The notes under the pieces: model-generated | What the model was told of the DNA's origin: nothing | Databases searched by the model: none | The model's input: only the letters and a program-made list of their open reading frames with translations | Origin: Pilaira anomala | Lineage: Eukaryota > Mucoromycota > Mucoromycetes > Mucorales > Mucoraceae | Length of the DNA: 51,952 nt | NCBI GenBank assembly: GCA_025716855.1 | Contig: JAIXMQ010000117.1 | Location: forward strand, 1 to 51,952 | Direction: 5' to 3' | Shown: positions 1 through 21,118 of the stretch, piece by piece | Numbering within the stretch: the first letter of the stretch is position 1 | Layout of the letters: each line of letters starts with the position of its first letter | Made by a program: the position numbers and the translations under genes

Positions 1-2338
1 GAACTAAAGGAAGCTTAGCTCTTGCTGTAAAAATATAGTTTCTACTGTCTCTTGTATATTTTGGGATATTGATTCCAAGTTCAGGCACACGTTGTCTTCG
101 ATTCATATTGATGGTAGCCGTTCTTCGTGGATCAAAAATCCCTACAAAAGGAGAATCACTTTCTTCACGCTCAGTAATTGTCATAGTGAGCTGATATCTT
201 GTAAGATATTCCTTCATAGTAAGATTTTGAACATTTGTACCACGGTGAAAGTATTTTCGACTTGGGTTCTTGTATAAATATCGGTTGAGCCTGGGTCTAA
301 CTGATTTAATTGTTCTAGGGGCTTCAGTTGTCTTCTTTATTCGAGATGAGGCATTGTGGTGTCAATATAGAGAACATCTCTGCTGTTTTGATGCTTGTGA
401 TAGCTAAGCAAGTCGTAAATAGCTTCAATAATACCAACTTTGCGTGAAGCAAAGTGTTCACCTGCTGTACCTGATCGTAAATTGACGTGCGTGTCTGATT
501 TTGATAGGTATTTGCTAAGATATACTTCTACTTGTCTGTCGTAACATATTTGTATATCCATAGTTGCTTGCCAAGCTGAAAGTAAATATGGGCTATATTG
601 ATTGACGTAATCAGAATGAGCGTTACGTTTGATATATACTCTGCCGTCAGTATCAGCAAAAGTAAAGTTGCAAGGAGGCTTGGGAAATCCAAATCTACAT
701 TGTTGATTGTTGTTTTTGAAACAATAGTTTGTGCAGTGATGGGTTTGTACTCTGGCTACTAATCGGTTCAAATCAAAGTGCTGAGCTTCGTCAGGGAGAT
801 AGGCAACGATAAGGTTCTCAACTTGGAGGAGTTCCTCTACTGATTTGCCTGTCCAAAGCACCATGTGAATATGAGGTGACCCACGATCTTGTAGTTCCAT
901 TACCCATGAAAAATCGGTAATACCACCTACCATGTTGGCAAAAACCTAAAAAAATATCAACAGGTTAAAAAAAAAGGTAAAACGTGTTTTAATATTATGA
1001 ACTTACCCCTTTGACACACTTGTTGCTAAATTGAAGGAAACGGTTTTTAAAGAAAGAAGCAAACTTCACAGGATCTTCCCATGGGCGTAAACCACCACAG
1101 GCACGATGGTACTCTTCAGAAAAGTCATCGCAACTAAAGGTTAAAAAGAGTTGAGGAGGTCCCAAGTGATTGAAGATGCACTGTAAATCTAGAGCATGAA
1201 TACGCTTATAGGCGTAGCTACTACGTAATGTATCAGGTACAATAGAAGCAATGTTTGTGTTGTATTGAGTTGCAGAGGTAGTGACATCATCACGTGTGAG
1301 TGTTCTTCGTGTTGAAACAGTATGTCTGTTTGCGCTTTGAATGTAAGCTTTTTCGATTAAATCGAACATAAAAAAGATCCATGCAGGGGAACGAGCAAAT
1401 CTTCTGTCTTGACATAATAAGAGTTGCTTTACATATTTTTTTAAAGTACCAATTCTATTTGCAGCTGGTCTACCACCAAATTCCTCAGGTAAGTTCTCAT
1501 CATGTGTAGTTTCCAAATCGTAGTGACCTTTACCATCGGTATACAAGTAGGGGAAAATTAATGAAAACAATCCATGGAATTTGAATTGAATATCTCTGTT
1601 GTTGATATCTGTTCCAATAGTTAAATCCAACAGGTTAATGCGAAAAGCAGAGGGAAAAACATCATCGGCGGGTAAGAGATAGGATGGCCAATCAGTGTTA
1701 CCCTCGTCACCTGTGGTGTGGCTTGATCTGGCTTGGTTTGTTTGAGCGTGAACAAATGCTTGGGCAATATTTTGTGCTTGGTATGCACGCAAGAAGTTGT
1801 TAGTTCTGCTCAAACGAATATAAGCGTCACGGACTTTTTGTTGGTCAATTCCTCTGGTCGTATCGGGGTAAAAAGGAAAACCAAGGAGTCCGCCATACAA
1901 GACATAAAGGAATTCGCGATTTGCGGTAGCCCACACGGATCCGGAGAGCATATAATGACCACTGTACGTATTGTTTGCACTAAGATTACGATTGATTAGA
2001 GTCATAATTTTAATTGGTGATAAAGCAGAAAGCTCCTTGTAGTTAAAATCATCAGTGTTAAAGGGAAGACCAGGATAAGTGATGGTAGAGCTAAATACAT
2101 CAATGGGTCCAGTACTATGTAAATTGCAAACCATGATCTCATTGGCACTGTTAAGGAGTACAGGAAGAAGCCATTTTGGACAAGTTAAAACTTGGAAGTT
2201 GGTTCCTTCAAAACCTCTAAAGTGTTGCTCGTTTGGTAACAACATGGTAATACAGACAGAGCAATAACCAGTGTAAATATTAGTTTCGTTCCAACGGCGG
2301 AATGCATTAACAGATTGAATCATATATTGGTTTAACAT
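1..2338 (-). pseudogene. Helitron A Rep/helicase, 5' portion, broken
   Basis: This is the N-terminal part of a rolling-circle (Helitron) replication initiator-helicase; the helicase part lies beyond the left window edge. Exon 1 is 2338-1007 (444 codons, starting MLNQYMIQS). A 61-bp intron (1006-946, GTAAGT...TTTAG) follows, then exon 2 from 945 to the window edge. The HUH nuclease motif is visible as PHIHMVLW, followed by a Cys-rich CRFGFPKP segment and the two-tyrosine motif EVYLSKYLSK. These are the hallmarks of the Helitron Rep domain. The frame is broken: a TAA at 337-339 replaces the Gln codon of the HLEQRRQ segment seen in copies C and D, and one base is missing near 252-258. The copy in B (35158-37399) shares the TAA, so inactivation preceded the duplication. 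Family assignment is firm; the copy is not functional as read. Confidence 0.93.
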
Positions 2339-2612
2339 AGTAGAAAATAACTAAATAGGTGAATGTTATTAAGCACGTTTTATTTTTTAAAAAAAAAAGA
2401 AATAACCTACAGTTTTTTGATGTTGTTGAAAATGAGATATGGTAATAGAAAAGAAAAAGGTTTTGTTAATTATATTGTTATGCTAAATCGCATAGTATAT
2501 CATGCAAGATGTTATCTGTAACTGGTTTTGTATCGTGGGAAATTTTTGATAAACTACTTTTCTTTTCTTTTTCCTTCCTTTTTTTATATTTCTTTACTCA
2601 AATTTACCTAAC
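2339..2612. promoter_or_regulatory. Divergent promoter region between Rep/helicase and gene X (copy A)
   Basis: This 274-bp gap separates the minus-strand Rep/helicase start from the plus-strand start of gene X, so both must be driven from here. The 45 bp before the X ATG are almost pure pyrimidine (CTTTTCTTTTC, CCTTCC, poly-T), a common fungal leader feature. No clear TATA position was assigned. The same layout is seen at 14316-14621 and 37400-37673. The promoter role is inferred from gene arrangement only. Confidence 0.5.
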
Positions 2613-3938
2613 ATGGCAAACCAATTGAATCTTGTTGTAACTAATGCCATTATCGTACCTGCCACCTATGTGTATGCTGTCCCTCCAGATCCAGAGGATC
2701 CTAATTCCGATCCCGTCATCTCGATCATGGCATGGGTTGATTACCCAACCTCCATCATATCTTTGCGCATGAAGCAAAGTTTAATTTTAAGAGCTGATCC
2801 TCAGTTTTTTAATTTTACAAGAAATGAAGGAAGAAGAATAAGATGTACGGGCGAGGTATCGTATATGCGTATTCATGGTATGAATATTCCTGCCGTTGAT
2901 GCTCGTTTCTCTCTTGGTGTTTTCGAACTTGAGATTTTACCTGGAGTAGTACCTATCAGCGGGCATTTCCAAACCTTTTTGAGAATTCATGAAGGGCCTC
3001 TTCATGCAACTCGTGGTACAAGGGGTGAAGGAAATACCATTTTGGATTTCAGAACCAACGTTTATTCCTTTAATCCAGATCGAGAAGATCCTCAAGACAA
3101 TCGAACTGGTAGTCAAGAAACACCAGTACCTGGTAGCCAGGGAACACCAGTACCTGGTAGTCAAGAAAGTCAAGAAACCGTAAGGGGTGGTCAAGGGCGA
3201 CCAGGAACGGCTGTTAGTGAAGAAGAACCATTACCAGGTGAAGACGATATTGACTGGGAAGAGGAAACTGAGGTTCAGCAGGAACCTAGTCAAACCCATG
3301 AGAATCAGATGGATTTGTTTGATATTTCTGAAGGTGAAGATAATTTTTCTGTTGAAATAGAAAGAACAATGGGTACAGAACAAGAAGAGGTAAATGAAGA
3401 AATTAGACGTGACCTGATGAGAGGGATGGGAGTTGATTTAGAAGAGGATCAAGAAGTAGAAGATGTAATGACTCAGGGACAAGGTCAAAAAAGAAGATCG
3501 GTTGGTGTCGAGCCTCCCAGTTCGGCATTGAGAAGATTGAATATTTCAAGTAAATCAAGCCAATCCAGTCAGTCTCGTGACAGAATGAGAGTTACTAGAT
3601 CCATGAGTATTAAAACGGAGGACAGTACGTCAGTCAGTGGTAGAAACAGGGCAAGCGGAGAAGAGGAAAGAGATGACAATACGTCAGTCAGTGGTAGAAA
3701 CAGGGCCAGCGGAGAAGGGGAAAGAGACGACAATACGTCAGTCGGTAGTACATGAAGTAGTAGTAGAGTACCAAGTGCAAGTCCGGTAGCACCGGAAGGC
3801 AGTTCTACTAGAGGGGCAGGTTTACGAAGAGCTCCTCGTGTAGTTAGACGTGTTTTTGGTACTGGGGATGGTAGCGGTACACCACCAAGAAGATTCCCTC
3901 GTACGAGGGGAAAGGGAAAAGGAAAAGAAAAAAGTTGA
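2613..3938 (+). pseudogene. Cargo gene X, copy A, single nonsense codon
   Basis: This is an unrecognised protein of 441 codons, essentially identical to the intact copy B (37674-38999). Here the Arg codon of the STRSSS segment is TGA (3753-3755), which would remove the basic C-terminal ~60 residues. Residues 1-155 look globular and beta-rich (VTNAIIVPATYVYAV, then DPNSDPVISIMAW). Residues 160-290 are acidic and low in complexity, with TGSQ/PGSQ repeats. The tail holds two near-identical tandem segments (SVSGRNRASGE) and, beyond the stop, an Arg/Lys-rich end. It is divergently transcribed from the Rep/helicase gene and followed by Y and Z. Because it is conserved with the Helitrons, it is probably an element protein rather than a random passenger. 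No function is assigned. Confidence 0.8.
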
Positions 3939-4077
3939 GCTTTTTTGCGGTGGTTGATTTAAACCTCAGTTTAATAAAAAAAATTCTGTTTATATGACTG
4001 GTTTAATAAATCATTGGTCTTTTATCTTGCTTTTTGTTTAGTTTTTTTTTATCTTTCTCTATATTTTTTTTAAAAAA

Positions 4078-4635
4078 ATGAATTACATCGAAGATCGCAT
4101 TGCTGAAAAGACAGGCATTTTGATCGTTGGGCTAATGCCATCACCATCCTGGGATGACGATCGTGAGAATGTATTTTTCAATGGGAGGAGAGAGCTGTTT
4201 TGGCGCTTCGCTGTTCAATGTAAGTTTTTCCTTTTTTTTTTGTTATATTCGGAAACTAATTTACGTCTTTTTTTTTTTTTAGTTGGTATTGTGCCAAATG
4301 ATGACATGGAGGATCTGGTCGAAAACCATTTTTACTCTTTTATATACTTAGTAAATGAGGCTCATCGTTCGTTTACACAAGTGCCAGAAGAGGAAGTTGA
4401 GGAGGGACTTCAGAAGGTTCAAAGATTTATTGAGGTTGAAGAGCCAAGAACCGTGATTGTTGTTGGAAAACAAATTGGTTTAAGATGGTGGGGTCGACCG
4501 ATTCGTCCAGCAGGACCTATCCATGATGAAGAGGATCTAGATGTATATCTTTTGCCGGGTGTAGTACCTAATCCTACATATTCAAGACAGGCAATTGAGG
4601 ATGAATTTAGACGTTGCGGGGAGTGGCTTGATTAA
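4078..4635 (+). CDS. Cargo gene Y, Mug/TDG-like DNA glycosylase paralog (copy A)
   Basis: Exons are 4078-4219 and 4283-4635; the 63-bp intron (GTAAGT...TTTAG) gives a 164-residue protein. The fold assignment to the Mug/TDG (G:U/T mismatch uracil-DNA glycosylase) branch rests on the order of motifs. A hydrophobic strand plus VGLMPSPS stands at residues ~15-22 in the place of the family's GINPG motif. Then come a FFNGRRELFW segment, a helix-VGK segment (TVIVVGK), and YLLPGVVPNPTYSR near residue 140, which resembles the family's second motif (PNPSxxSR). The catalytic Asn of motif 1 is absent (M or P in its place), so on its own it is probably inactive as a classical glycosylase. It lies 140 bp after X and just before paralog Z, all on one strand. 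Nuclear action is likely for a transposon protein, by inference. Confidence 0.75.
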   Translation: MNYIEDRIAEKTGILIVGLMPSPSWDDDRENVFFNGRRELFWRFAVQCKFFLFFLLYSETNLRLFFFLVGIVPNDDMEDLVENHFYSFIYLVNEAHRSFTQVPEEEVEEGLQKVQRFIEVEEPRTVIVVGKQIGLRWWGRPIRPAGPIHDEEDLDVYLLPGVVPNPTYSRQAIEDEFRRCGEWLD

Positions 4636-4697
4636 TAGTTTTTTTTTCCTTTCTCTTTTTTTTCGCTCTTATCTTTTTACTCTCACATTTAATAAAA

Positions 4698-5294
4698 ATA
4701 CTTTTAAAACAAAACGCTTCTGTCTTGTTTGTTGGTATCAATCCTGGTTTAGAACTTTCTCAAGGATTTTTTGGGACTTCCAAAAATCAGTTTTTTTCAT
4801 TATTGAAAGCAAGTGGTAAGTGTTAAAAAAAAATAACTTTTATTGATATAAACTTTAGGTTTTATTGAAGCTGAAAATAATGAAGCAGCGTTTGAACCGT
4901 ACAACATGAGCTTTATGAATTACGTGGATATGCCTACAAGAAGTGAAAAAGAGATCAAGAACGATGAATTGTTACATGGAAAACACCGTTTAGAACAAGT
5001 TGTAGAGGAGTACAAACCGCGTGTTGTCTGTTTCGTTTGAAAAAAATGCTGTAAACTCCAGTTGTATGTTCCTCGTACAAATAACGAGGTAGAATTTGGT
5101 ATTCAAGACAGAAAAGTAAAAGACAGGGTAGTGATCTGTGTCCCTCATGGAAGCACGGAAGGAGCTCAAATGAAATTTGAAGACAAGTTGAAGTAAGTCT
5201 TTTTTTAAACAAAAACAATAGTGTGTGTAAATTGACTTTATTTAAATTTAGGATCTACCATCAGCTGTTTACTCTTTTAAATAAAAATATCTAA
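4698..5294 (+). pseudogene. Cargo gene Z, Mug/TDG-type uracil-DNA glycosylase (copy A, broken)
   Basis: Exons are 4698-4815, 4859-5192 and 5252-5294, with introns starting GTAAGT and ending TAG. The deduced protein has the canonical Mug/TDG first motif VLFVGINPGL, with the catalytic Asn; then GFFGTSKNQFFSLLKASG, a YVDxPTRSEKE segment matching the family's L-V-x-R-P-T region, and PRVVCFV before a VGK site. The second motif is altered (VPHGSTEG). Two defects are visible. The expected start codon (ATG in copy C) is ATA at 4698, with no ATG upstream in frame. A TGA at 5038-5040 replaces the Gly of VGKKC. Copy B shares the ATA but not the TGA. Family membership is strong; this copy is a pseudogene unless a non-AUG start is used. 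Confidence 0.8.
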
Positions 5295-5339
5295 GCTATG
5301 TATGTCCTTGTCATGTTTATTTTTTAAAAAAAAAATATC

Positions 5340-6432
5340 CGGCTAAAAAAAAAAGCGCTCTCTGAAAAAAAAAGCCCACTCGAGAAAAAAAAAGGGCGTT
5401 CTTAAAAAAAAAAAAGCGCGCCCTTAAAAAAAAAAGCGCGCTCTTAAAAAAATTTATCGTGCCCTTGCCTAGAAATTTTTTGGTAGGCCACTTTCTCTAC
5501 CGGGCCCTGCCTAGAAAAAAAAAATCTGCCAGCGAAAAAAAAAAACTTTTTTTTCGGGAACTTGCCCTGATAATTTTGGATAGGCCATTTTTTTTACTTT
5601 TCTCTGTTTAAAAAAAAAATAAAAAAAAAATAAAAAAATTTACCGTGCACTTGCCCAGAAATTTTTTGGTAGGCCACTTACTCTAGCGGGCCCTGCCTAG
5701 AAAAATAAAATCTGCCAGCGAAAAAAAAAAATTTTTTTTCGGGAACTTGCCCTGATAATTTTGGATAGGTCATTTTTTTTACTTTTCTCTGTTTAAAAAA
5801 AAATAAAAAAAAAATAAAAAAATTTACCGTGCACTTGCCCAGAAATTTTTTGGTAGGCCACTTTCTCTAGCGGGCCCTGCCTAGAAAAAAAAATCTGCCA
5901 GCGAAAAAAAAAAAATCTGCCAGCGAAAAAAAAAAACTTTTTTTTCGGAAACTTGCCCTAATAATTTTGGATAGGCCATTTTTTTTACTTTTCTCTGTCT
6001 AAAAAAAAATAAAAAAAAATAAAAAAATTTACCGTGCCCTTGCCTAGAAATTTTTTAGTAGGCCACTTTTTCTACCGGGCCCTGCCTAGAAACATTTAGG
6101 TGGGGCATTTTTTCTACCAGGCAATGTCTAGAAAAATTTAGGAGGGGCATTTTTTCGACCAGGCCCTGCCTAGAAAAAAAAAAATCTCCCAGCAAAAAAA
6201 CTGAATTTTTTTTCGGGAACTTGCCCATATAATTTTGGATGGGTCATTTTTTTTATTTTTCTCTTTCTAAAAAAAAATTAAAAATAAAAAAAAAAAAATT
6301 TACCGTGCCCTTGCCTAGAAATTTTTTGGTAGGCCACTTTTTCTACCAGGCACTACCGAGAAAATTTTGGCCGCCCCACTTTATTTTTTTTACCGAACCC
6401 TGACTAGAAAATTTTAGGCGGGTGGGCATTTA

Positions 6433-6466
<34 letters not shown>

Positions 6467-6567
6467 GCCCCAGGCTCAGTGTATTATTGGTATATATAAT
6501 AAGGTTATATTTATTATTTATTATAGCTAAATACATTACTTGTACCTTGATAAGATGTAAGAAATAA
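5340..6567. repeat. rDNA spacer (left of 5S), subrepeat array, copy A
   Basis: No gene is present. From about 5450 there are five imperfect units, each starting near AATTTAYCGTGCMCTTGCC (about 5452, 5638, 5822, 6026 and 6297). Each carries AGAAATTTTTTGGTAGGCCAC and GGGCCCTGCCTAGAAA. Unit spacing is roughly 184-270 bp. Copy B (40518-41330) has only four units, so the array changes length. The last part is an AT dinucleotide run and a poly-T tract before the 5S gene. The stretch at 5340-5450 is A-rich with GCGC blocks and may still belong to the Helitron. Confidence 0.7.
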
Positions 6568-6684
6568 GCTACGGCCATACAATATTGAAAGCACCGGATC
6601 CCGTCCGATCTCCGCAGTTAAGCAATATCTGGACCAGTCAGTACTATGGTGGGGGACCACATGGGAATACTGGTTGCTGTAGTT
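6568..6684 (+). rRNA. 5S ribosomal RNA (copy A)
   Basis: This is a full-length ~117-nt 5S gene. It starts GCTACGGCCATAC and ends GGTTGCTGTAG, and the two ends pair. The internal control region is present: AGTTAAGCAATATCTGG (box A region) and AGTACTATGGTGGGGGACC (box C region). It is followed by a long T-run serving as Pol III terminator. It lies in the spacer between the 28S 3' end and the next unit, and is transcribed opposite to the 28S fragment. Ends are approximate by 1-3 nt. Confidence 0.92.
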
Positions 6685-6689
6685 TTTTT

Positions 6690-8127
6690 ATTTATTTTTT
6701 ATTTATTTATTTTTTATTTATTTTTTATTTATTTTTTTTTTATTAATCTTTTTTATTGTTATTATCATTATTATTATACATTCTGTTTATACTTTTAATT
6801 TTATTCAAACATGTTTTTATTTAACTTTTATTACAATATTTAAATCAAACTAAGTAGGTCGCGCAATCGAAACTTAACGGGGATACACTTTTTTTTTGTT
6901 TTGTTTTTTTTTTTTCTTTAATAGTTATGTATATAGTTATTATATATAAATATGTTTACTTAAGGGAATATTTAGAAAAAAAGAAAAAGTTTATTTAAAC
7001 TAGTATTATCATAATCATATTTATATTTGAAAATATATTTTAAGTATGAATATATTCGAAATCATACTATATAATAAGGCATATTATACTCAAAAAATTT
7101 ATTATTCTCTCAAAAGTTACTTGAAAAACTTTATTTACACTAAAAAACCATTTACGTACTGTTTATAATAACATACACGTCGGTTTTCCCAAAAAAAGAA
7201 AAAAAAAAAATTTTTAAAAAAAAACGTACACTTCCAAGACCCACAACTTGGCCATACCTTTTTAATTAATACTTGAATCACAGTCTGAGTTCAAACGTTA
7301 CTATTTCCTATCGGTGCTTATGGGGTTCAATCTCCGTAGGCACCTCCTAGGGTAGGTCCTAGGAATTGGGCCTAAGATAGGGTCCTCTTCCTAGAAGGAC
7401 CTTCCCCCTAGAAAGACAATCCTTTACCATTACTTGTAGGTAAAAAAACCTCCCGCGCTTAAAAAGTCTGAAAGGAGTGGGCACTAAATACCCCTTGTTA
7501 GCCCGAAAAAAATGATTAAATAAAATACGTGCGTTTAGAAGAAAAAAAAATTTTTTCCGCCTAAAAAACTTTTCTTCAGCTAAGCTTATGGCGTAAAGCC
7601 TCGTTATAAACCTCGCCTAAGAAAAACTTTTCTTCAGCCAGGCCTATAGCCTAAAGCCTCGCTATAAATTTCGCCTAGAGTTTTTTTTTTTCCAACGAAA
7701 CTTTTACACCTAGCCTCGCTATAAATCTCACCTAAGAAAAAACTTTTCTTCAGCCAAACCTCTAGCCTAAAGCTTCGCTATAAATTTCGCCTAGAGTTTT
7801 TTTTTTTCAAGCGAAGCTTTTACGCCTAGAATATTTTTTTTTTCCAGCGAAACTTTTACGCTTAGCCTGACATAGTCTCAGCTTAAAAAGTATTTTTTCT
7901 TAATACCTCCCCGAAATTTAAAAGCTACAGAAGAACGAGCATTGCTCATTACAATTCAATAAAAAAATAAATAGTTTAATCCCGTGTGAAAGTAGTAGCA
8001 TTAGCTTGGGCATTGCTGTTACTATACACAAAAAAAAATAAAAAAATAAAAAAAATAATAAGATAAAAAATAAAAATAAATTTATTTAATATTAATTATT
8101 TATTTATTAAAAAGTGTTCCCAGAGGA
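6690..8127. other. rDNA intergenic spacer between 5S and 28S 3' end (copy A)
   Basis: No coding gene is seen. It contains an AT-rich part (6700-7200) and a unique G/C-richer part near 7230-7500. At 7560-7870 is a short array of units with CTTCGCTATAAATTTCGCCTAGAG, T-run and CCAGCGAAACTTTTACGCCTAG. Copy B carries more units of this array (42420-42860). A short A/T tract precedes the 28S 3' end. Confidence 0.65.
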
Positions 8128-8524
8128 ACAAATTCAATGACAAAGGCTTAATCTCAGTACATCGTAGCAACAAAGGCTACTCTAGTACTTACAATACCCC
8201 GTCCATTTCATGTCGTCTGCATGCGATTTATCATTTTGATGTATTAGCATTATCATTAGCAGGTAGACCAAGCAGCATTTCCGCTACAAGACCTATCCCA
8301 CAAGTAAAGGTTTTCAAGCCGAAGCTTTATTAGTACACATCTGGTACAATTCAAAACACAGTAGTACCGTTTTCAGCATGGATTCTGACTTAGAGGCGTT
8401 CAGCCATTATCCAGCAGATGGTAGCTTCGCGGCATTGGCCTTTCAACCAGCCGCAAATACCAATTATCTGAATGAAGGGTTCCTCTCGTACTGACTTCAA
8501 TTACTGTTACGATACCAATACCAT

Positions 8525-8579
<55 letters not shown>

Positions 8580-8697
8580 ATTAGTGGGTGAACAATCCAA
8601 CGCTTACAGAATTCTGCTTCTGTATGATAGGAAGAGCCGACATCGAAGAATCAAAAAGCAACGTCGCTATGAACGCTTGGCTGCCACAAGCCAGTTA
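8128..8697 (-). rRNA. 28S rRNA, 3'-terminal fragment (~570 nt), copy A
   Basis: The minus strand reads the conserved 28S 3' portion from TAACTGGCTTGTGGCAGCC, through the alpha-sarcin/ricin loop (AGTACGAGAGGAAC), to the 3' end near AATTTGT. It begins abruptly at 8697: the universally conserved upstream sequence ending CCACAGGGA is replaced by the Helitron C terminus. The fragment therefore lacks the rest of the 28S gene in this window. Conserved segments look intact (for example GCTGGGTTTAGACCG), unlike copy B. Confidence 0.93.
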
Positions 8698-8805
8698 ATC
8701 AGATAGATTATATCTTCGATATACGAAGTACTGATAGGAACTATCAGTAGTTGGTATACCAAAGGTATACTATCATCCTGTTGTAACTTTTCTAGGACCT
8801 GTCAG
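8698..8805 (-). other. Helitron C 3' terminus with hairpins and 28S-like block
   Basis: Three hairpins are stacked here: CTTCG/CGAAG around 8715-8730, CTGATAG-GAA-CTATCAG around 8731-8748, and GGTATACC-AAA-GGTATAC around 8753-8770. Further in, at about 8778-8800, is a 24-nt block whose minus strand (AGAAAAGTTACAACAGG) closely matches the 28S sequence that normally precedes the insertion point (AGAAAAGTTACCACAGGGA). Helitron D carries a similar block in the same place. Confidence 0.75.
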
Positions 8806-8879
8806 TACGCGTTGATTCCATGGTAAGAACAAAAAAAAAAGGAACGATAGATTGGAGAATTGGAAAAACACGTTTTTGG

Positions 8880-10300
8880 AGGAAGAAAGAACCATGACCA
8901 AAAAATGACGCGAAAAAAATGAAAAAAACGCGAAAACTCACATAATAAAGTTGAGTCATCCATTAATTTGCAATCTATCAAAGTTCTTAAAATTCAAAAA
9001 GAAACGGGATTAAAAAAAAACGCGTAAAAAAAATTCTTTTTCATTTTGTGATCGACACAATTAATTTGATAAAATTTGCAATCTATTAAAGTTTTTAGAA
9101 TTTAAAAATTAAGTCAATAGACATAGTATAACCAAAGAGTAAAAAAAAAGTTTGATTTAAAAAAACGCGAGGAAAAAACACAGATGATTGATTTTACAAT
9201 CCTTCAAATTGCTTAAAATTCAAAAGAGAATATATACAAATCAAAAAACGCGTTGATTTTTTTTGTTTTTTATTTAACACCGTCTGTAATCGATTGCTAC
9301 AATTCTACAATCTATTAAAGTTTTTAAAAATTTAAAAAGAATAGATAATCCTAAAAAACCTCCATATTTTTTCTTTTTCGTCAATTACACGATCGATGAT
9401 CAACACCAATGTATGTACAAACTATTAAAATTTATAGAATAAAAAAAAGCATAGATAATCCTCCAAAAAAATAAAAAAATAAAAAAGTAAAAAAACGTGT
9501 TTAAAAATATAGATGATTGGTTTTATTGATTCTACAATTAATCAAAATTCTTAGAATATAAATAAATGTAGATAATCATCAAAAACAAGTGTAAAAAAAT
9601 TTATTTTTTTAAAAACGTGTTTAAAAAACAGATGATTCATTTTAACAAACTCTACAATCTACCAAAGTTCTTAGAATTTCAAAAAGAGTCGATAATCGTA
9701 AAAAAAATGATAATAAAAAAAAAAAGTTGAAAAAACGCGTTTAAAAAACAGATGATTCATTTTAACGAATTCTACAATCTACCAAAGTTCTTAGAATTAA
9801 GAAAAGAGTCGATAATCGTAAAAAAATGTAAAAAAAAAAAAAAAAATTGAAAAAACGTGTTTAAAAAACAGATGATTCATTTTAAAGAATTGTACAATCT
9901 ATCAAAGTTCTTAAAATTTAAAAAAGAATAGATAATCGTAAAAAAAATGATTATAAAAAAAAAAGTGAAAAAACGCGTTTAAAAATACAGATGATGGAAC
10001 CTATTGACTCTACAATGTACCAAAATTCTTAAGATTTAGAAAAGAATAGATAATCGTAAAAAAAATTATATAAAAATAATTTCTTTTGAAAAAATGTGTT
10101 TAAAAAAGCATATGATTGATTTGACAAACTACCAAAGTTCTTAGAATTTTACGTAGGTAATCTTTAAAAAAACAATGCGCTTTAAAAAAAAAACAGATTT
10201 TACAATCTGCGCAAAAAGACACAGAGGATGGATTCTATTGATTTTATAATCTATCAGATCTTTAAAAAAAAAACAGGTGTGTCGAGCTTAAAAGCTATTT
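8880..10300. repeat. Subterminal tandem repeats of Helitron C (~100-110 bp units)
   Basis: There are about a dozen degenerate units. Each contains AAACGCGT or AAACGTGT, CAGATGATTNATTTTA, TCTACAATCTACCAAAGTTC, TTAGAATT and GATAATC followed by an A-run. The most regular units lie at 9590-10080. There is no open reading frame. Related units occur in Helitron E at 24100-24990, in the same position between the 3' terminus and the helicase stop codon. From 10300 to 10440 the sequence is only AAAAGA-type low complexity. Confidence 0.8.
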
Positions 10301-10461
10301 ATTATAATTCATAGATATATAAAAAAAGATAAAAAGTAAAAAAAAAAAAAATAAAAAGAGATATAAAGAGAAGAGAAAAAGATAAAAATAAAAAAAATAA
10401 AAAGAGAAAAAAAAAGAATAAAAAAGATAAAAAAAAGATGAAAAAAGATAAGAATGAATTG

Positions 10462-13400
10462 TTAAAATACGTTTTGTTCACAGATTTGAATTGCTTGAAT
10501 ACAATCTAAGCTTGTTTTGATGGAAAGTTGATTAGTTATAGGAGGGAAAAAGTATAAATCTTGTAATCTTTTTACACGACTGGCAGCAACATAAAGTTGG
10601 CCTGGACTTGGAAAATCGTTTCTTGTGCAAATGGCAATGGAATCGAGAGTTAAACTTTGTACTTTATGTATCGTAGTAGCAAAGGCGATATCTAAAGGAA
10701 GTTGTGTTCGGCTAATGGATGATTTATACACAAAACGTGTGATTGGGTTAATAATTTTGGTAAGGCCGTCTAATCTTCTAATTTCTACTGAATGTTGATT
10801 AAGTCTGGAAACAACGGCCATGGTTCCGTTGACCCAGCCTTCAGAAACTGATAAATTATGTAAATGCATGACGGGTACGCCTATTTTTAAAATTAAGATT
10901 TCTTTGAGGTGAGTTTCGTTGAATGCTAAAGAGTGTCTGAAACCAGCAGACCTATCTTTTGCATTGTAGTATCGGGGAACACTTTGGATTTGTCTAATTC
11001 GGAAATCGTTGTAGGTAGAAGTTTCCTCGTTGGAGATAAAAACGCGAATAATATGATTGGGGGGGTCTTGAAAAGAGCGAGCTTGAATAATTTGGAAAAG
11101 ATGATCAGTGAAGCGATATAGTCTAAGATTATTTAAAATTGTTTGTACTGGAGTTCTTCAGGCTGGGCACGGACAAAGGTGGTCATGGGGTGGGTATGAC
11201 ATGCTTGCAACAAAGGGTGGAAAAAAGGAGGCTTTAAAATAGGTTCTGCTGGGTTTGGAACAGGAGTAAGCTGACCAAAGTCACCAAAACAAATAGTCAA
11301 TACACCACCAAAAGGTCTATCTTGTAAAGTAGTATTTATGAAAGAACGATGAATTGTATCAAGCGTGTAATAAGAAACCATGGAAATTTCATCAATCAGT
11401 AAAACAAGGCGTTGATTTGAGTCTATATCAGTAAAGTACTCGTTTATTCTACGAGGGTTGGGAATATTCGGTCGATTGGTAATACCAAAAAAACGGTGAA
11501 TCGTTTGCCCATCAACCGTGACAGCAGCAACCCCGGTGGGTGCTAATTTAATAGGTATAAAGTTGAGTTGCTTTAATGCAATATAAATCATTCTTAAAAG
11601 TTGAGATTTTCCTACACAGGCACCGCCGTGCACAAGATGAAATCCAAAAGGAGAGCTGAGAATGGTTTCAAAAATACCTCTTTGTTCCCGGGTGGCCACA
11701 TTTAAATACTGATGCAAGAGATATAATTCGGATTGTGTTACTTCAGGATTTGTTTGACGAACTTCACGGTCTAAAATATCTTCGGCTTCTACAATAGCAT
11801 TAAGTTCATCATCGGTGAATCTTGAACGGAACAGTTCATTCGTATCGATTAATTGATGGAAGAGTTCTCTCCACGTCAAATCTCCTTTCTCTGTTTCAAA
11901 ATTACGAGAAACATGATGTAAAACAATTTTTTGGTAATAGAATGCTTCACCTTGATTAACATTAACATTGTACACGCGAACCAAAGGAATTTTAGTTCTT
12001 GCTGTGAAGATATAGTTTCTTGAATCTCTAGTGTACTTTGGAATACGTAAATTTAATTCAGGAACACGGACAGTGCTGTTCATGTTTATATTTGCGGTTC
12101 GTCTTGGATCAAAGATACCCATAAAAGGTGAATCACTTTCTTCACGTTCAGGAAGAGTCATTGTTAGCTTGTACCCGGTAAAGTATTCCTTCATGTTTAG
12201 ATTGAGTACATTAGGCCCACGATGAAAATACTTTTCAACTTGTGTTCGGGTATAAATATCTGTTGAGCCTGGCTCCAATCTATTTAACTGCTCTAATGAT
12301 TTTAATTGCCTTCTTTGCTCCAAATGCGGCATAGTCGTATCAATGTACAGGACTTCTCTGCTGTTTTGATGTTTGTGATAACCTAACAAATCGTAAATTG
12401 CCTCAACGATGCTAACTATTCTAGAGGCGAAATAATCTGAAGCCGTACCAGAGGTGATGTTGATATGTGTATCTGATTTTGATAAATATTTTGAAAGATA
12501 TATCTCCACCTGTCTATCATAGCAGATTTGGATATCCATAGTAGCTTGCCAGGCGGAAAGTAAGAAAGGATTATACTGATTTATATGGTCTGACTGGGCG
12601 TTACGTTTCACATGAACTCGGTCATTGGTGTCTACGTATGTTTGGTTACAAGGAGGTTTGGGGAAACCAAATCTACACTGGGTGTTGTCATTTTTAAAGC
12701 AGTAGTTTCGGCATGTATGTGTTTGAACTCTTGCTACGAGACGATTCAAATTAAAAAAAGGTTCTCGTCGGGTAAGTCCGCCACAAGAAGGTTGTCTACT
12801 TCAAGTAATTCATCAACTGTTTTGCCTGTCCAAAGGACCATGTGAATGTGAGGAGAGCCACGGTCTTGCAATTCCATAACCCAAGAGGAATCGGTGATAC
12901 CTCCAACAATAGTAGCAAATCGCTAAAAAAAAAATCATTTAAGTTTACAAAAAAAAAAAAGCAATTCATGTATAAACTTACCCCTTTTATGCAAGCTGAA
13001 TTGAATTGTAAAAAACGATCTTTAAAAAAAGAAGAAAACTTAACAGGGTCTTGCCAAGGACGTAAATTACCACCACACGCTCTGGTATACTCTTCGGAAA
13101 AGTCATCACAGCTGAATGTTAAAAACAATTGAGAAGGGCCTAAATGGTCAAAGATACATTGAAGATCTTGGGCATGAATACGTTAGTAGGCGTAGCTACT
13201 GCGTAATGTATGAGGTACAATGGATGCCACTCTTGAATTGTATTGCGTATCCGATGTAGTGACATCATCACGTGTAAAATTTCTTCTGGAAGAGACGGTG
13301 TGGCGATTGGCACTTTGAATGGTCTTTTTTTCAATCAAGTCATACATGAAAAAGATCCAAGAGGGTGACCTAGCAAATCGTCTGTCTTGACACAACAAGA

Positions 13401-14315
13401 GCATCTTGACGTATTTTTTTAAAATACCAATTCGGTTGGCGGCAGGTCTACCACCGAATTCTTCTGGAAGATTTTCGTCATGTTGGCTATCCAAATCGTA
13501 GTGACCTCTGCCATCTGTATAGAGATAGGGAAAAATAAGAGAGAACAAGCCATGATGTCTGAATTGAATATCTCGGTTGTGAATATCCGTACCCACAGTC
13601 AACTCTAATAAATCCACGGTGGAAGCTGATGGGAAGATATCATCGGCGGGTAAAAGATAAGAAGGCCAATCTGTGTTACCTCGATCCTCAGTGGTATGGT
13701 TTGTCTCTACTGAATGCTCTTGAGCAAGAGTAAACGCTTGGGCTACATTTTGGGCTTGATAGGAACGCAAAAAGTTGTTGGTACTAGCTAATCGAATAAA
13801 AGCGTTTCTCACTTTTTCCACATCAATGTCTCTACAATATTGGGATGAAATGGAAAACCAAGAACACCACCATACAGGACATGAAGAAATTCACGATTGG
13901 CAGTCGCCCAGACCGAACCAGTGAGCATGTAATGACCGCAGTAGGTGTCATTGGCGGTGAAATTACGCATGATGATGGTCATGATTTTGATGGGGGAGAG
14001 AGCAGAAAGTTCTTTGTAATTAAAATCATCAATATTGAAAGGTTCACCAGGATACGTGATGGTAAAACTAAAAACATCAATAGGGCCGGTTTGATGTAAG
14101 CGGCATACCATGATGTGACCGATACTGTTTACAAGGACAGGAAAAAGCCATTTAGAGCATGATAAAGTATGCAGCTCAGTAGAGTCAAAACTTCTGAAAA
14201 ACTGTTCCGTTTGATACAACATAGTAATACAAACTGAGCAGTAACCGGTGTAAATATGCTGTTGATTAAAGTTTCGGAAAGCGCGAATCGATTGAATCAT
14301 ATATTGGTCTAACAT
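10462..14315 (-). pseudogene. Helitron C Rep/helicase (Rep + Pif1-type helicase), broken
   Basis: The full-length gene is present, from MLDQYMIQS at 14315 to the stop at 10462. It has an N-terminal Helitron-like region, an intron (12981-12923, GTAAGT...TTTAG), the HUH motif SPHIHMVLW, CRFGFPKP, and the Y2 motif EIYLSKYLSK. The Pif1-like helicase follows: Walker A HGGACVGKSQL, Walker B LLIDEISMV, and the C-terminal GQLYVAASRV motif. Defects are a frameshift near 13815-13830, TAA at 13183-13185 (Lys in A), a T-run frameshift near 12755, and a frameshift near 11130. The third Walker A residue is Cys instead of the Gly seen in E and D. It is divergent from cargo X. Several breaks fall in homopolymers and could be sequencing errors. 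Confidence 0.93.
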
Positions 14316-14621
14316 AGTGTTTAAGAAAAAAAAATAAGAGAGAAAGAGGTAAAGGATAACTTTTTTTTTTTTTTTTTATATAATAAAGAAAAAACAAATA
14401 AAAAAAGGAGAAAGGGTCGGAAATTTTTTTTTTTTGATAGATTTTGTTTTTTTTATGATAGATTTTTTTTTTGATAGATTTTGTTTTTTTATGTTCGGAG
14501 GTTTTTTTTTTTTATATCTTCGGAGGGTTTTTTTTTTTTTTATATATCTTTTTTATCTTTGGTTTTTTTTTTCTTTTATTTCCCTTTTTTTTCTTTTCTT
14601 TTTCTTTTTTTAAAAAAAAAA
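14316..14621. promoter_or_regulatory. Divergent promoter region between Rep/helicase and X (copy C)
   Basis: This 306-bp gap is dominated by T-runs, with repeated GATAGATTTT and TTCGGAGG-T-run motifs. It ends in a pyrimidine leader of ~60 bp before the X ATG. An ATG at 14481 opens the same frame but lies inside the T-tracts. The ATG at 14622 was chosen because it aligns with the start of copies A and B. Confidence 0.45.
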
Positions 14622-15422
14622 ATGCAACAACCTATTGAAAATCAAATTAGTATGACTTTAACGAATGCAGTGATTGTTCCTACCACTGCAGTCTATGCAG
14701 TTGAGCCCGATCCCGATGATCCTAATTCTGATCCAGTGATTTCAATCATGGCCTGGATTGAATATCCAAGATCAATTATTTCGTTAAGAATGAAGGAAAG
14801 TTTGATCCTTAGAAATTGCCCAGATTTTTTTAGAAGCACTCGACACGAAGGACGCAGAATCAATTGTACTGGAGATGTATCGTATATGCTTATCCATGGG
14901 TTAAATATTCCTGCAGTAGATGCTCGTTTTTCTCTTGGGGTGTTTGAAATTGAATTTTTACCTGGTATCGTTCCAATTAATGGTCATTTTCAAACCTTTT
15001 TAAGAATCCATGAAGGGCCGCTTCATACTACTCGTGGTACACATGGTGAGGGGTATACTATCTTAAATTTTAGAACATTCGTAACCTCTTTTACTCGTGA
15101 TGCAGACCAGCCAACGGCTGAGACATCGACAGCGGGTAGTCAAGACCGACCTCAGGCGCCACCAGCAACCGGTAGTCAGGCACAACCAGCAACCGGTAGT
15201 CAGGCACGACCAGTGACAGGTAGTCAGGCGCAGCCAGAAGAAGAATTTGGAACCAGTACTCAAGAGCGACCTCCCACAGCTGAAGAGGATGTTATTTTGG
15301 GTGATGAAGAAGAAGCTGAAGTTCAACAGGATCCACCTGAAGAACAACACCAAGGGAGAGAAGTTCAACAGGATGCGCCGGAAGATGAAGCGGTTAACTT
15401 ATATGATATTTCCGAAGCTGAA

Positions 15423-15453
<31 letters not shown>

Positions 15454-15905
15454 AGGCAATGGATGCAACAGTTGAAGCTGATAAGGAAGTAGAAAGAGTG
15501 GCTAATGCAGAAAGAAGACAAAAAAGAAAGTCAGAAGGAGAGGAACCACCCACTTCCGCTTTAAGAAGATTAGAGATTTCAAGTCAATCCAGTCAGGGTT
15601 CAGAAAATCGGGTGAAAGTTACACGTTCTTCCAGTCTTTTGAGTACACAGAGTGAAACAGCAGAAGAAGGTACGTCAGTCAGTACAAATAGTAGTGAAAG
15701 AGAAGAAAGTGTACCTCCTGCTTGGACAAGTAGAGGCTTTCGGAGATTACCTCGCGTCGCCCGACGTATCTATAGCAGTGCAGAGCCAGCAGGGCCTTCA
15801 GAGACACCTGCAGCACCGACACCATCAACACCCCCTTTAAGAAGATCGACGCGAAAGGTAAAGGGAAAGGGAAAGGCAAAGGATGACACTTATCGCGGTG
15901 GTTAA
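14622..15905 (+). CDS. Cargo gene X, copy C (intact, 427 aa)
   Basis: This is an unrecognised protein and the intact homolog of X in A and B. The N-terminal ~155 residues are well conserved between copies (VIVPTTAVYAV, DPNSDPVISIMAW, SLGVFEIEFLPGIVPINGHF, FLRIHEGPLH). The middle is repetitive and acidic: a TGSQAQP/TGSQARP heptad-like repeat, then a run of eleven Asp codons near 15425-15450. The C-terminal 80 residues are Ser/Pro/Arg-rich and end in KGKGKAK. A conserved core, an acidic linker and a basic tail suggest a nucleic-acid or chromatin-associated protein, but that is inference. An OB-fold single-strand-binding role is one possibility, since some Helitrons carry RPA-like genes; no diagnostic motif was seen. 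It is followed at 160 bp by Y. Confidence 0.82.
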
Positions 15906-16066
15906 AGTTTTACCATCTATCTATCACTAAACTGTGAATAAAATCTATGATATCAGTTACATGTATGCTTAATCCAGATAAATTTTTTCCTTTTCTTTTT
16001 TATTTTTCCTCTCTTTTTTTTCTTTTTATTTTTTCCTTATTTTTTTTTTAAAAAAAAAAGGAAGTT

Positions 16067-17242
16067 ATGAATTACATTGAAGATAGAGTTGCTAAAGACA
16101 CAGGGATCCTAGTGGTTGGTTTAATGACTTCTCCTAATTATGATGAAGTTTTGAAAAATGTTTTCTTTAACGGGAAAAGAGAGTTATTTTGGGAGTTAGC
16201 TGTAAAACGTAAGTTTTTTTTTTTTTTTTTTGTTTGGATGATCAGAAAAGGTTAATTTACATTTTTTTTTTTAATGTACAGTGCATCTATTCTTAAATCA
16301 AAAATTTTTAGCCCTAGCTAATTTTTTTTATAAAACTGCAAATTTTCTACCAAAAAAAGTAATTTAATCATTTAGAATGAACATAGATCTTTTAAATTAG
16401 ACCTGTTAAAGATATGTATGAAAATAGATATTTAATTTTGAAAACAAAAAATTTCAAAATAAGTTGATAAAATATCGACTTAATAGCAGGGCCGACTCGA
16501 AAATGTCCGGCTATTTTGGCAACCAAAGTTCATATCAGAGCAGTAGTAACACATGATATTGCAGTATGTGGTCACACCAATGTTTAAAATGTTACAGGAA
16601 AAGGCTTCAGATATAGACATCTACAAAACTGGGGTTGAAGAAGTTCTCCAAATCTTATAATCACATGATTAACTTCATTTGATTCAATAAAAAAATATTT
16701 ACTCACATTATATGAGTTCAAACAAAAAATTTAAATGTGTTTTATTGGTTTAAACTATCAAAAGCTGTGAGAACTTCCTAAATTAGTAACTTTTTTATAT
16801 ATAAACTGAGTTTAAACCCAAAAACTGGGAATGTCCGTTTTTTAAAAAAATTCGATTTAAAAATAGATGCACTATAGACGATATTATTCCTACTGATGAT
16901 ATGGACGACCTTGTAAACACTTACTTTTTCTCTTTTTTATATGTGGTGAATGAGGCCCATCAAACGTTTCAGCAAGTACCTTCAGAGGAAGTGGAAGAAG
17001 GGATTCAGAAAATAAAAGATTTTATCAAAGACAATAAACCCGGCACCGTGATTCTTGTAGGTAAAGTGATTGCTTTACATTGGTGGGGTCGTCCCATGCT
17101 TCCCACAGGACCTATCAAATACGGAGAAGGTGATGAGATGGTGGAAATGTATCTGTTACCAGGGGTGGTACCCAACCCAAGTTATTCAAAAAGAGCTATT
17201 GACCAAGAGTTTAAACTTTGTGCCCAGTGGCTTTTAGAATAA
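16067..17242 (+). CDS. Cargo gene Y, Mug/TDG-like paralog (copy C), intron hosting a MITE
   Basis: Exons are 16067-16208 and 16878-17242 (168 residues). The intron at 16209-16877 is enlarged from 63 bp to 669 bp by a 596-bp MITE. The protein aligns without gaps around the splice with copies A and B. It has ILVVGLMTSPNYDE in place of GINPG, FFNGKRELFWELAV, TVILVGK, and YLLPGVVPNPSYSKR, which resembles the second Mug/TDG motif PNPSxxSR. The catalytic Asn of motif 1 is missing, as in the other copies, so the loss is old and conserved. The reading frame is open once spliced. It may act with Z as a complementing partner (inference). Confidence 0.78.
16279..16874 (+). mobile_element. 596-bp TA-flanked MITE, copy 1 (in intron of Y)
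   Basis: Terminal inverted repeats CAGTGCATCTATTCTTAAATC (left) and the complement of TAGTGCATCTATTTTTAAATC (right) are flanked by TA on both sides (16277-16278 and 16875-16876). It has no coding capacity. A second copy of the same length, in opposite orientation, is at 29650-30245. TA duplication and a CAGT start point to a Tc1/mariner-type nonautonomous element. The right TA plus the following G re-forms the TAG splice acceptor of the host intron. Confidence 0.88.
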
Positions 17243-17336
17243 TTTTATCAGTACAAGCCTTTTTTTTTTTTTTTAAAAATCTCTTCTATCACTTTTTTTT
17301 TTTTCTTTTGCTATTCTTTTCTTTTAAATAAAAAAA

Positions 17337-17993
17337 ATGCTTTTGAAAAATAACGCTTCGGTTCTTTTTGTTGGAATCAACCCAAGTTTAGAGCCATCTC
17401 AAGGTTTTTTCGGAACACCTAAGAATCAATTTTTTTCTTTATTAAAGGCGAGCGGTAAGTTCACATATTTCTAGAGATACATATATATATATATATATAT
17501 ATATCAAAGCGAAAAAGCAAGTTTGGGATTCATTTCTTTTTTAAAAAAAAAAAAAAAAAGGGTTTTATCAGGCTGAAAATGATACAGTTGCTCATGAAGT
17601 GTACAACATGGGTTTTATAAACTATGTGGATCGACCTACTAAAAGTGAAAAAGACCTTGGCAAGGAGGAACTTTCAGAAGGGAAAAGAAGATTACAAAAC
17701 ATCGTAGAAGAGTATCAGCCCCGTGTCGTTTGTTTTGTGGGGAAAAAGTGTTGCAAATACCAGCTTTACGTTGCAGGTACAAAGAATGACATTGAATTTG
17801 GGTTGTAAAGCCGAAAAATTGGTGATACAGTCGTTTTCTGTGTACCCCACGGTAGTACAAAAGGGGCGCAGTTAAAATTTGAAGACAAGTTGATGTACGT
17901 TTATTTTTTTTTTATTTGCATGAAACTAAACGACGCATTTTATTATTTACGTTTAGATTTTACCGTCAACTTTTTAACCAATTAAATAAATAA
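17337..17993 (+). pseudogene. Cargo gene Z, Mug/TDG-type uracil-DNA glycosylase (copy C, one stop)
   Basis: Exons are 17337-17454, 17561-17894 and 17957-17993 (163 codons). Copy C keeps the ATG that A and B have lost. Motif 1 is VLFVGINPSL: the catalytic Asn is present and the following Gly is Ser. Then come GFFGTPKNQFFSLLKASG, YVDRPTKSEKD, PRVVCFVGKKC and VPHGSTKGAQ. A TAA at 17806-17808 replaces the Gln of EFGIQDRK in copy B, cutting off the last ~50 residues. Intron 1 has an (AT)n run. The family's reaction is removal of uracil or thymine from mismatches with guanine by base flipping. Whether any copy here is active is not shown by the sequence. Confidence 0.82.
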
Positions 17994-18009
17994 ATTCTTT
18001 TTTTTTTTA

Positions 18010-18270
18010 TAAAAAAAAAATTAAATCTAGTCAAAAAAAAAAAATTACGCGCTTTAAAAAAAAAAAAAAAATTTTAAAAAAAAAAATCTCGCGCTTTAAA
18101 AAAAAAAAAATTTTAAAAAAAAATCTCGCGCTTTAAAAAAAAAAAAAATTTTAAAAAAAAAATCTCGCGCTTTAAAAAAAAAAAGAATTTCGCGCTTTAA
18201 AAAAAAAAATTTTAAAAAAAAAATTTTTAAAAAAAAAATTTTCGCCCTTTAAAAAAAAAGATATAAAAAG
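18010..18270. repeat. A-rich tandem repeat with CGCGCTTT units
   Basis: About six units of TCTCGCGCTTT followed by A-runs and ATTTT-A-run, with a period near 35-40 bp, lie between Z and W. A comparable A-run/GCGC array follows Z in copies A (5340-5450) and B (40400-40515). No gene is present. Confidence 0.7.
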
Positions 18271-18328
18271 GGAAGTATTTTTTCCATAATTTTTTTTTTT
18301 TCATTCTTTTTTCAATTTAAAAAAAAAT

Positions 18329-19200
18329 ATGTCAAACAAGCAAGTTACAAAGGATTTTATGGCTGCTTCTCCACATTATATTACTGGTGTTGTCAGGGGT
18401 ATCATCAAGGTGCCATGCCGTTTGAATGTTGCACTCATCAAGGATGTGTCTGGGAGCTTAAAACTGACCAGTGGGGGTAAAACCGTGAATGTATATATCA
18501 ATGATTATCGTATGTTGTTTCGGTTTTTAAAGTTGAAAGGTGAAATTCAAGAAATTGTGGTCACAGGTATGTTAAATTATTTTTTTTTTTTTTTTAAATT
18601 GTTTGGTGTGTGAAATATTTATATTTTTTTTTTTTTTTAAAAAAAAAAAAAGGTCCTTTATCAGTTAAAGCATTTATTGATGCGGCGGGAAAAAAGGCAG
18701 GTGCAAGTACAAGAGTACAAGCAGAGAGTATCCTGGTGTTTGTGGTAAACGGTGACGTTCTTAAAAAGGTCAATTTATTCAAAGAAGAAAATCACGTGGG
18801 TCAAGAGACTTGTAAATATTTTTTAATGCGTCAAGCCTATCAATTCTTTGAAAAAGAAGACAGAGTGATTACTGGCAAGTGTCCACCCGACAATCTATAT
18901 GAAGAATTAACCAAAATACATACGAAATTATGTAAGTTGTTGTGACACTGTGTGATTGCAATGGGTTCTTATTTTTTTTTTTAAAAAAAAATAGGCTTTG
19001 AACAGGAACAGGGTAAAGATACGAAAAAGGAATTGGTACCCAATATTGAGAAAAGAAGCGTTGAAAAAACACTTCAAGACTACATAGTTAGAAGTAATAA
19101 ATTTACGATAGAATTTGTTGAAGCGGGTGAAAATAAAAAATTGGAACTCTTGGATGATGACAATATTGGTGATATTGAAATGGGTGAAATGAATGAATAA
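18329..19200 (+). CDS. Cargo gene W, unknown 240-aa protein (only in copy C)
   Basis: Exons are 18329-18566, 18653-18931 and 18995-19200. The introns begin GTATGT and GTAAGT, end AG, and contain long A/T runs; the splices keep one open frame to TAA at 19198. The protein starts MSNKQVTKDFMAASPHYITG. It has a beta-rich first half (GIIKVPCRLNVALIKDVSG, KTVNVYINDYRMLFRFLKL), a middle with KAFIDAAGKKAGASTR, and an acidic C-terminus. I do not recognise the family. Spacing and strand place it in the same cargo series as X, Y and Z. It is absent from A and B, where rDNA spacer follows Z directly. A small OB-fold-like binding protein is possible but unsupported by a named motif. Confidence 0.75.

Positions 19201-21081: not shown

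Positions 21082-21118
<37 letters not shown>

Follow-up and report, generated by a model that had tools for sequence, protein, structure and literature searches.

The window analysed in this work is the entire contig C21 (51,952 bp) of the genome of the fungus Pilaira anomala, a member of the Mucorales (34.25 Mb, 225 contigs), and it raises the question of what a piece of the 28S rRNA gene is doing at the end of a Helitron. On its minus strand, two different Helitrons join 28S sequence at the identical base (8697/8698 and 43682/43683), as the initial annotation had pointed out. This had been attributed to site-specific targeting of the 28S gene by the elements. We take the site to lie in the peptidyl-transferase-centre segment and, presumably, close to the position of the omega group I intron in mitochondrial LSU rRNA.

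Organization of the window

The first Helitron (H1) was complete and occupied positions 8698–23971 of the minus strand, from its 5′ end at 23971 to its 3′ end at 8698 (15,274 bp). It was recognized by a 5′ word at 23936–23971, a 3′ terminus at 8698, a PIF1 helicase ORF and HUH and YxxxY motifs, its frame being broken in places. The second one (H2; 43683–51952, minus strand) had its 3′ end at 43683 and its 5′ end past the contig limit. Between both, a composite Helitron unit (H3; 23972–43682, minus strand) extended from a left end made of 28S sequence (TAACTGG, at 43682) to a right end CTGAT at 23972, and its left part consisted of 567 nt of 28S beginning exactly at TAACTGG, a spacer and a 5S gene, followed by the H3 genes and 3′ end. 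A second composite copy with the same 28S, spacer, 5S and H3 genes (H3-prime; 1–8697, minus strand) was cut by the contig end. Thus, the two 28S-led copies follow different Helitrons, H2 preceding H3 and H1 preceding H3-prime. The corresponding 28S 3′ parts (Rfam RF02543) were located on the minus strand at 43116–43682, as the left end of H3, and at 8130–8697, where the second copy also starts exactly at TAACTGG. Both 5S rRNA genes (Rfam RF00001) lay in the spacer on the plus strand, opposite to the 28S, at 6567–6685 behind the second 28S piece and at 41446–41564 inside H3.

Comparison of H3-prime with the copy at about 35158–43682 gave 564 identical bases of 567 aligned in the 28S piece and identities of 97.7% in the spacer and 99.7% in the H3 genes. 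The copies therefore differ unevenly (0.5, 2.3, and 0.3%, respectively), and the spacer may exchange with rDNA or mutate faster in A/T runs. Five dispersed 28S fragments of 39–83 bp with 82–97% identity were also present in the genome, all on contigs of at least 100 kb: L003 (C168), L005 (C153), L006 (C1), L007 (C206), and L008 (C165).

Other elements were observed in the window. H3 was interrupted by an approximately 8.5-kb insertion at about 26686–35157 (limits set by eye), with end sequences CACTATGGC(A/G)GA (also by eye) and several ORFs (27952–30774), three of which had no match in NCBIfam and one of which had none in Pfam. The H2 Rep gene was split by a PIF/Harbinger-like transposon (DDE_Tnp_4) at 47408–49950 with long inverted ends GGCCAGGGCAAAAATCCTACTTGAGAATAGCCT (by eye). 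Copies of a repeat of about 600 bp, 87–92% identical, were found at 29648–30248 and 16276–16876 of the window and at 260–864 and 2935–3539 of contig C61, one of them in what looks like an intron of an H1 cargo gene. Three regions (2553–5250, 14478–18000, and 37614–40330) contained Helitron cargo genes divergent from Rep; one gene had a sub-threshold uracil-DNA-glycosylase match (PF03167, E 0.0049), and cargo ORFs of another family (2553–3755 and 14478–15905) gave no match in Pfam or NCBIfam.

Rep and helicase of the elements

The GSPHxH motif (as GSPHIH) was identified in H1, H3, H3-prime, and the C61a element of contig C61, and the YxxxY pair, as VE(V/I)Y(L/P)SKY, in these four and in H2. Pieces of H3, H3-prime, and C61a matched the Helitron_like_N domain (PF14214) above the cut-off, and H1 did so below threshold (E 0.0022). 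PIF1-type helicase (PF05970) was detected in H1 (E 2.7e-18) and H2 (E 1.4e-7). We classify the elements as two-tyrosine rolling-circle Helitrons. In addition, the structure model of a homologue (P0121) retrieved the Helitron transposase 7lcc as its only match at E < 0.001; the model was poor (mean pLDDT 47.8; TM-scores 0.17 and 0.11) and the top match alone was used. No endonuclease domain was found in the scanned Rep and helicase ORF pieces, whose frames are broken.

Protein relatives were found in Rhizopus and Choanephora. A P. anomala homologue, BD770DRAFT_454234, was 100% identical over its 241 residues to a frame of contig C61. Among the best 120 of the 7560 matches of the first protein search, most were PIF1-type helicases. 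The P. anomala genome itself contained 30 helicase matches, further Helitron lineages among them, and no further copy of the word described below was seen in the loci covered from these lineages (L023–L052). On contig C30, a helicase piece 63% identical to that of H1 was accompanied, within the 20 kb examined, by neither the word nor a copy of the 28S left flank. The 16 and 23 stretches retrieved by two pattern scans of IMG/VR viral contigs all lacked the full word, and one of them (L086) had the CTTG..CAAG pair alone. Searches for Rep relatives in IMG/VR and for relatives in prokaryote genome contigs gave none, and no solved structure was matched by sequence up to E 1.

Helitron 3′ ends abut one fixed word

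At 8697/8698, the minus strand reads the H1 end ATAATCTATCTGAT (8711–8698) and then 28S TAACTGGCTTGTGGCAGCC from 8697. At 43682/43683, the H2 end ATAATCTTACTGAT at 43683 is followed by the same 28S TAACTGGCTTG from 43682. Rfam LSU_rRNA_eukarya matched 8130–8725 (E 1.2e-125) and 43116–43709 (E 3.4e-119); the Rfam 28S consensus across the site is CAGGGAUAACUGGCUUGUGGC, and clear homology ends at the junction. The two Helitrons upstream are distinct, as had been proposed: their last 60 nt aligned with 42 identities, 12 mismatches, and 12 gap columns, and their helicases were 65% identical. The window contained a third 3′ end that was absent from the initial annotation, at 23971/23972, and this one adjoins 28S-like sequence that is not 28S.

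The P. anomala assembly (34.25 Mb) was then scanned with patterns. The pattern GGCTTGN{5,10}CAAGCGTT had exactly seven matches in the 34.25 Mb, all seven at Helitron junctions (0 matches with the reversed pattern as control). Six 3′ ends met TAA(C/A)TGGCTTG directly, three in the window and one each on contigs C61, C41, and C34. At 23971/23972 and at the C61 and C41 ends, the sequence continues as TAA(C/A)TGGCTTGCCGCAnnACAAGCGTT, which is not 28S; the C34 junction has the 3′ end of another lineage, ACAATCTACAAGTGGT. At the seventh junction, on C41, about 43 nt had been lost across the end and GGCTTGCCGCAACACAAGCGTT was kept. A 31-nt pattern with up to 3 mismatches gave four matches genome-wide, all at Helitron 3′ ends (control 0). 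A longer pattern including the 3′ terminus gave four exact matches and one with 1 mismatch at junctions; at 3 mismatches its six matches were no excess over the control (11). The H2-type 3′ end had four exact matches in the genome, three of which run into the word, the fourth being the inner copy of a 66-nt 3′-end duplication on C41 that runs into its own repeat. At two or three mismatches there were 58 matches versus 45 in the control, which we read as noise except for the two H1/H3 ends among the 58. A 20/23 match to the C34-type 3′ end on contig C154 is followed by ATAAGG, and nothing Helitron-like was found upstream of it.

Since the partners begin with the same 11 letters, TAACTGGCTTG, the joining point can be placed no more finely than within this stretch, the exceptions being a partner that starts with TAAATGG and another whose first letters were lost. 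The proposal that 3′ ends meet TAACTGG was borne out by six direct junctions and one with a small deletion, besides the inner C41 copy. None of the located 3′ ends ran into unrelated sequence. All junctions come from four contigs of one species (the window, C61, C41, and C34), which are short (25.5–52 kb, C61 having 25,519 bp).

Helitron 5′ ends copy the 28S right flank

In five of the seven junctions, the sequence next to the 3′ end is the 5′ end of another Helitron. The starts at 23971 of the window and at 13249 and 30465 of C41 have related stretches within the next 300 nt, and a gene of the same family is found near the three of them (window 21876–23183, C41 13769–14302, and C41 31308–32114; by eye). 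The unit starting at C61 11120 leads on to a Rep that has about 35% identity with the H3 protein. These starts after the junctions, together with the completeness of H1, indicate that the word is a 5′ terminus and that the elements are arranged head to tail.

The five 5′ ends aligned with the right flank of the 28S site with 32/36 (H1, 23936–23971, minus strand), 27/32, 24/30, 24/27, and 22/26 identical columns. Their scores against the 28S site (34–54) exceeded the maximum of first-order resampled sequences (26–28; 0/5000 in each case), and against the remaining 28S piece they reached 14–18, H1 scoring at best 14 against 54 at the site. The possibility that these copies were decayed remnants of real 28S genes was also considered. 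All five share a loop change in which CCGCA replaces TGGCA. As this change is absent from 28S, the five copies go back to one ancestral element end, and separate 28S remnants are not their source. In addition, Helitron 5′ regions lie behind them, three of which are interrelated. Both results rule out decayed 28S.

The word is short compared with what surrounds it. Local alignments of H1 with the downstream units on C61 (C61b) and C34 extended over just 32 nt, of which 29 were identical, and 27 nt, of which 26 were identical, respectively, and a word of about 27 nt is common to units with Rep proteins only about 35% identical (H3 versus the C61b unit). The confinement of the alignments to 32 and 27 nt points to a conserved function of the 5′ word. 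The word contains an inverted repeat, whose stability did not exceed that of shuffled sequence (z −0.1 to −0.7); for the 28S form, another fold was preferred over the inverted-repeat hairpin. As folding energy gave no support to a DNA hairpin as the recognized feature, we speak of a word and not of a hairpin.

Helitron 3′ ends of one group copy the 28S left flank

The Rfam consensus left of the site is AGGUGUCAGAAAAGUUACCACAGGGA. A copy of this flank was present 65–156 nt before the terminus in all five 3′ ends of the group formed by H1, H2, H3, C61a, and C41a, with 19–21 of 23 positions identical in four of them. In H1 it lies at 8777–8800 of the minus strand (AGGTCCTAGAAAAGTTACAACAGG, 20/24 identical to the Rfam consensus; 0/2000 resampled sequences reached its score), and in H2 at 43750–43772 of the same strand (AGGTGTCGGAAAAGTTACTACAG, 21/23 to the Rfam 28S consensus). 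The H3 copy (24057–24087, minus strand) is more decayed (24/31; score 34 versus a resampled maximum of 26, 0/2000). Altogether, the left-flank copies scored 30–38 against a resampled maximum of 24–26 (0/2000 each). With the remaining 527 nt of the 28S piece, the same 3′ ends gave scores of 24–28, so these copies rise less above background than the right-flank ones. The flank was absent from both C34-type 3′ ends (two of the seven junctions). A genome scan for the left-flank pattern, in which up to 3 mismatches were allowed, gave five matches (control 1), four of them at these 3′ ends and the fifth in the dispersed C168 fragment, an uninterrupted and decayed 28S site without a Helitron.

The H1 3′ terminus (8698–8728, minus strand) comprises a hairpin, CTTCG-TATAT-CGAAG, followed by ATATAATCTATCTGAT; its fold had a z of −1.9, and 10 of 200 shuffles folded as well. 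The distance from hairpin to end was 16 nt in H1 and 12 nt in H2. Elements of the H1/H2/H3 group finished with CTGA and an extra T (CTGAT), and those of the C34 type with GTGGT. Just inside the 3′ end of H3, at 24037–24061, its 25 terminal nt recur in inverted orientation, giving a long palindrome.

The 28S piece as a probable surrogate Helitron end

The pattern TGGCTTGN{5,10}CAAGC had a single match in the searched left 8.5 kb of H3, namely the 28S word. In turn, similarity of the 5.8-kb 5′ region of H1 to 28S and spacer was limited to the initial 36 nt and to a further match of 31 nt on the other strand. With no other word in this part of H3 and the H1 match confined in this way, the 28S occupies the place of a Helitron 5′ end. 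Rather than as mere insertion flanks, the 28S pieces are best understood as the left ends of composite units arrayed head to tail. The second unit may have been copied from TAACTGG, or H1 may have inserted into an older tandem at its 28S word, and in both cases the 28S word would have been treated as an element end or as a target.

The claim of site-specific targeting consequently held in part. Different Helitrons do meet 28S at one nucleotide, but three results favour reading the 28S as a surrogate Helitron end: the same junction occurs without 28S, the next 5′ end copying its right flank; its left flank is copied in the 3′ ends of one group; and 28S, spacer, and 5S stand in the array at the place of a Helitron 5′ region. 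The initial annotation had suggested looking for 28S genes with an insertion after GGGA. The junction of 28S left flank and Helitron 5′ end had 0 matches in the assembly with up to 3 mismatches; the pattern was taken from the Rfam consensus, because the decayed C168 fragment is the sole source for the left flank of the species' own 28S. The assembly also lacked an intact 28S 3′ part. Given the lack of both, insertion into a 28S gene was not seen directly, and present-day targeted insertion at this site is what we infer.

Comparison with other transposable elements

The comparisons that follow draw on portions of the cited papers. In the Helraiser work, Helitrons are described as inserting at A/T, with precise joining of their ends and formation of circles, and arrays of them are known (PMC5876387). 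By this rule, the junction GGGA/TAAC has an ordinary A/T Helitron dinucleotide; the initial annotation had considered a fixed site unusual for elements needing only A/T or T/T, and the dinucleotide itself is not. As in canonical Helitrons (Helraiser/Helibat; PMC5876387), the Pilaira elements have an HUH Rep with two tyrosines four residues apart, a PIF1-type helicase, a 3′ hairpin (12–16 nt before the end here, about 11 nt before CTRR in the canonical form), head-to-tail arrays, and an A/T site, here in 28S with no left junction found in the assembly. Unlike these, their 5′ ends start with TAAC or TAAA and not with TC, their 3′ ends read CTGAT (CTGA plus one T) or GTGGT in place of CTRR, their ends copy the two flanks of one gene, and the located junctions are at one word and not at any AT (PMC5876387).

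Helitron2/Helentron elements, including FoHeli of Fusarium, as described in parts of PMC5148889 and PMC4067079, share with those of Pilaira a fungal host, an inverted repeat inside the 5′ terminal sequence, and tandem copies (in Metarhizium). The Pilaira elements differ from them in having no endonuclease domain in the scanned, frame-broken ORF pieces and no asymmetric terminal inverted repeat: when the inverted form of one common 5′ word was compared with the final 150 nt of six elements, no uninterrupted match exceeded 7 nt.

Among elements inserting in RNA genes, R1, R2, and Pokey are named for 28S and Dada for small RNA genes, and the available portions of these two sources mention no target-specific Helitron (PMC3706591; PMC8869645). 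R2 (non-LTR) and Pokey (piggyBac) use the 28S gene as landing site, as the Pilaira elements may, with different enzymes and at another 28S site, and only the Pilaira element of this comparison holds copies of both target flanks (same sources, in part). The fixed 28S position in Pilaira refers to the right-side junction, in two of two 28S cases; the left side was not found in the assembly. The titles and abstracts searched contained no report of Helitrons in 28S or of Helitron ends copying their target, subscription journals and Repbase reports lying outside that search.

The Pilaira elements can also be compared with bacterial ones. IS91 and IS200/IS605 are bacterial HUH elements that transpose as single strands without target duplication. 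The Pilaira elements share with them HUH single-strand transposition and probably, with IS608, which integrates site-specifically (PMC5876387, in part), site specificity, and differ in their eukaryotic RepHel enzyme and in a word of about 27 nt that matches an rRNA gene.

Proposed mechanism and alternative explanations

The Helitron 5′ terminus copies the 28S right flank, one group of elements has the left flank near its 3′ terminus, and Rep probably nicks the sequence GGGA/TAACTGG. The mechanism that we infer goes beyond the sequence facts and would operate as follows. Rep would nick 28S at GGGA|TAACTGG since this site resembles the element's own end. It would bind TAACTGGCTTG..GCA..CAAGCGTT, in 28S as in the element 5′ end, and attach to the T after the nick. 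The freed GGGA end of 28S would then take the element 5′ end and the TAACTGG end its 3′ end, giving an insertion exactly at the 28S site whose left junction would read GGGA|TAACTGGCTTGCC. A resident Helitron 5′ end, bearing the same word, would be an equally good target, and head-to-tail arrays would arise. The 28S site could also stand in for a 5′ end, with copying that begins in 28S, proceeds through its 3′ part, the spacer, the 5S gene, and the downstream Helitron, and stops at the 3′ end of the latter, which would have given rise to H3. Finally, the left-flank copy near the 3′ end would likely be a relic of a former insertion at this point, followed by read-through to a new 3′ end, the end-bypass described in part of PMC5148889. 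If Rep recognizes the word right of the nick, 28S and a resident Helitron 5′ end would be equivalent substrates, and this equivalence would account at once for the fixed 28S joint, the head-to-tail arrays, and the composites starting in 28S.

The main rival is past capture followed by ordinary recombination within the shared stretch. The 5′ end would be an old piece of 28S, with no recognition of 28S by Rep today, and the 28S junctions would come from recombination of the 26–36-nt stretch with real 28S in the rDNA. There is enough common sequence for annealing (up to 32/36 columns), the dispersed fragments show that 28S pieces move about the genome, and the higher divergence of the spacer (2.3% versus 0.3% in the H3 genes) may mean exchange with rDNA. 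Capture, however, gives no account of the other 28S flank in the 3′ ends of one group, nor of a word of about 27 nt kept at about 35% Rep identity while the adjacent sequence diverged. We therefore regard it as rather unlikely.

An ordinary tandem array without sequence preference, generated by circle or concatemer copies and with a single 28S-led junction duplicated, is already disfavoured, and we assign it a low probability. Plants and bats are known to have Helitrons arrayed head to tail (PMC5876387) and Metarhizium has three tandem copies (PMC5148889), according to portions of these papers, and both 28S-led units of the window are copies of each other. However, the Helitrons upstream of them differ in the last 60 nt and in their helicases (65% identical), which excludes junction duplication, barring a replacement of the upstream element at exactly that base; a single ancestral junction copied twice, an outcome raised in the initial annotation, was thus ruled out. 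Moreover, the 28S flanks are matched by both element ends. An assembly artefact, in which short words common to Helitron ends and rDNA reads caused false joins, would fit the short junction contigs (25.5–52 kb) and the lack of an intact 28S 3′ part or left flank elsewhere, but it is very improbable because the junctions recur with different partners across four contigs, a mechanical join would not be expected to yield a deletion of about 43 nt private to one junction and a 3′-end duplication private to another, and the flank copies inside the elements are independent of any join.

Implications for Helitrons and rDNA

Canonical Helitrons are described as A/T inserters, whereas the junctions of the Pilaira elements stand on one word that matches 28S. 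Genome engineers would also have an interest in a single-strand transposase directed specifically to a multicopy site. The wider reading, which we advance tentatively, is that 28S flanks have been built into the ends of a Helitron clade, for which the 28S gene may act as target, docking site, and spare replication origin. If this were true, rolling-circle copies launched by Rep would carry 28S, spacer, and 5S along with them, and the rDNA of this fungus would itself be mobile.
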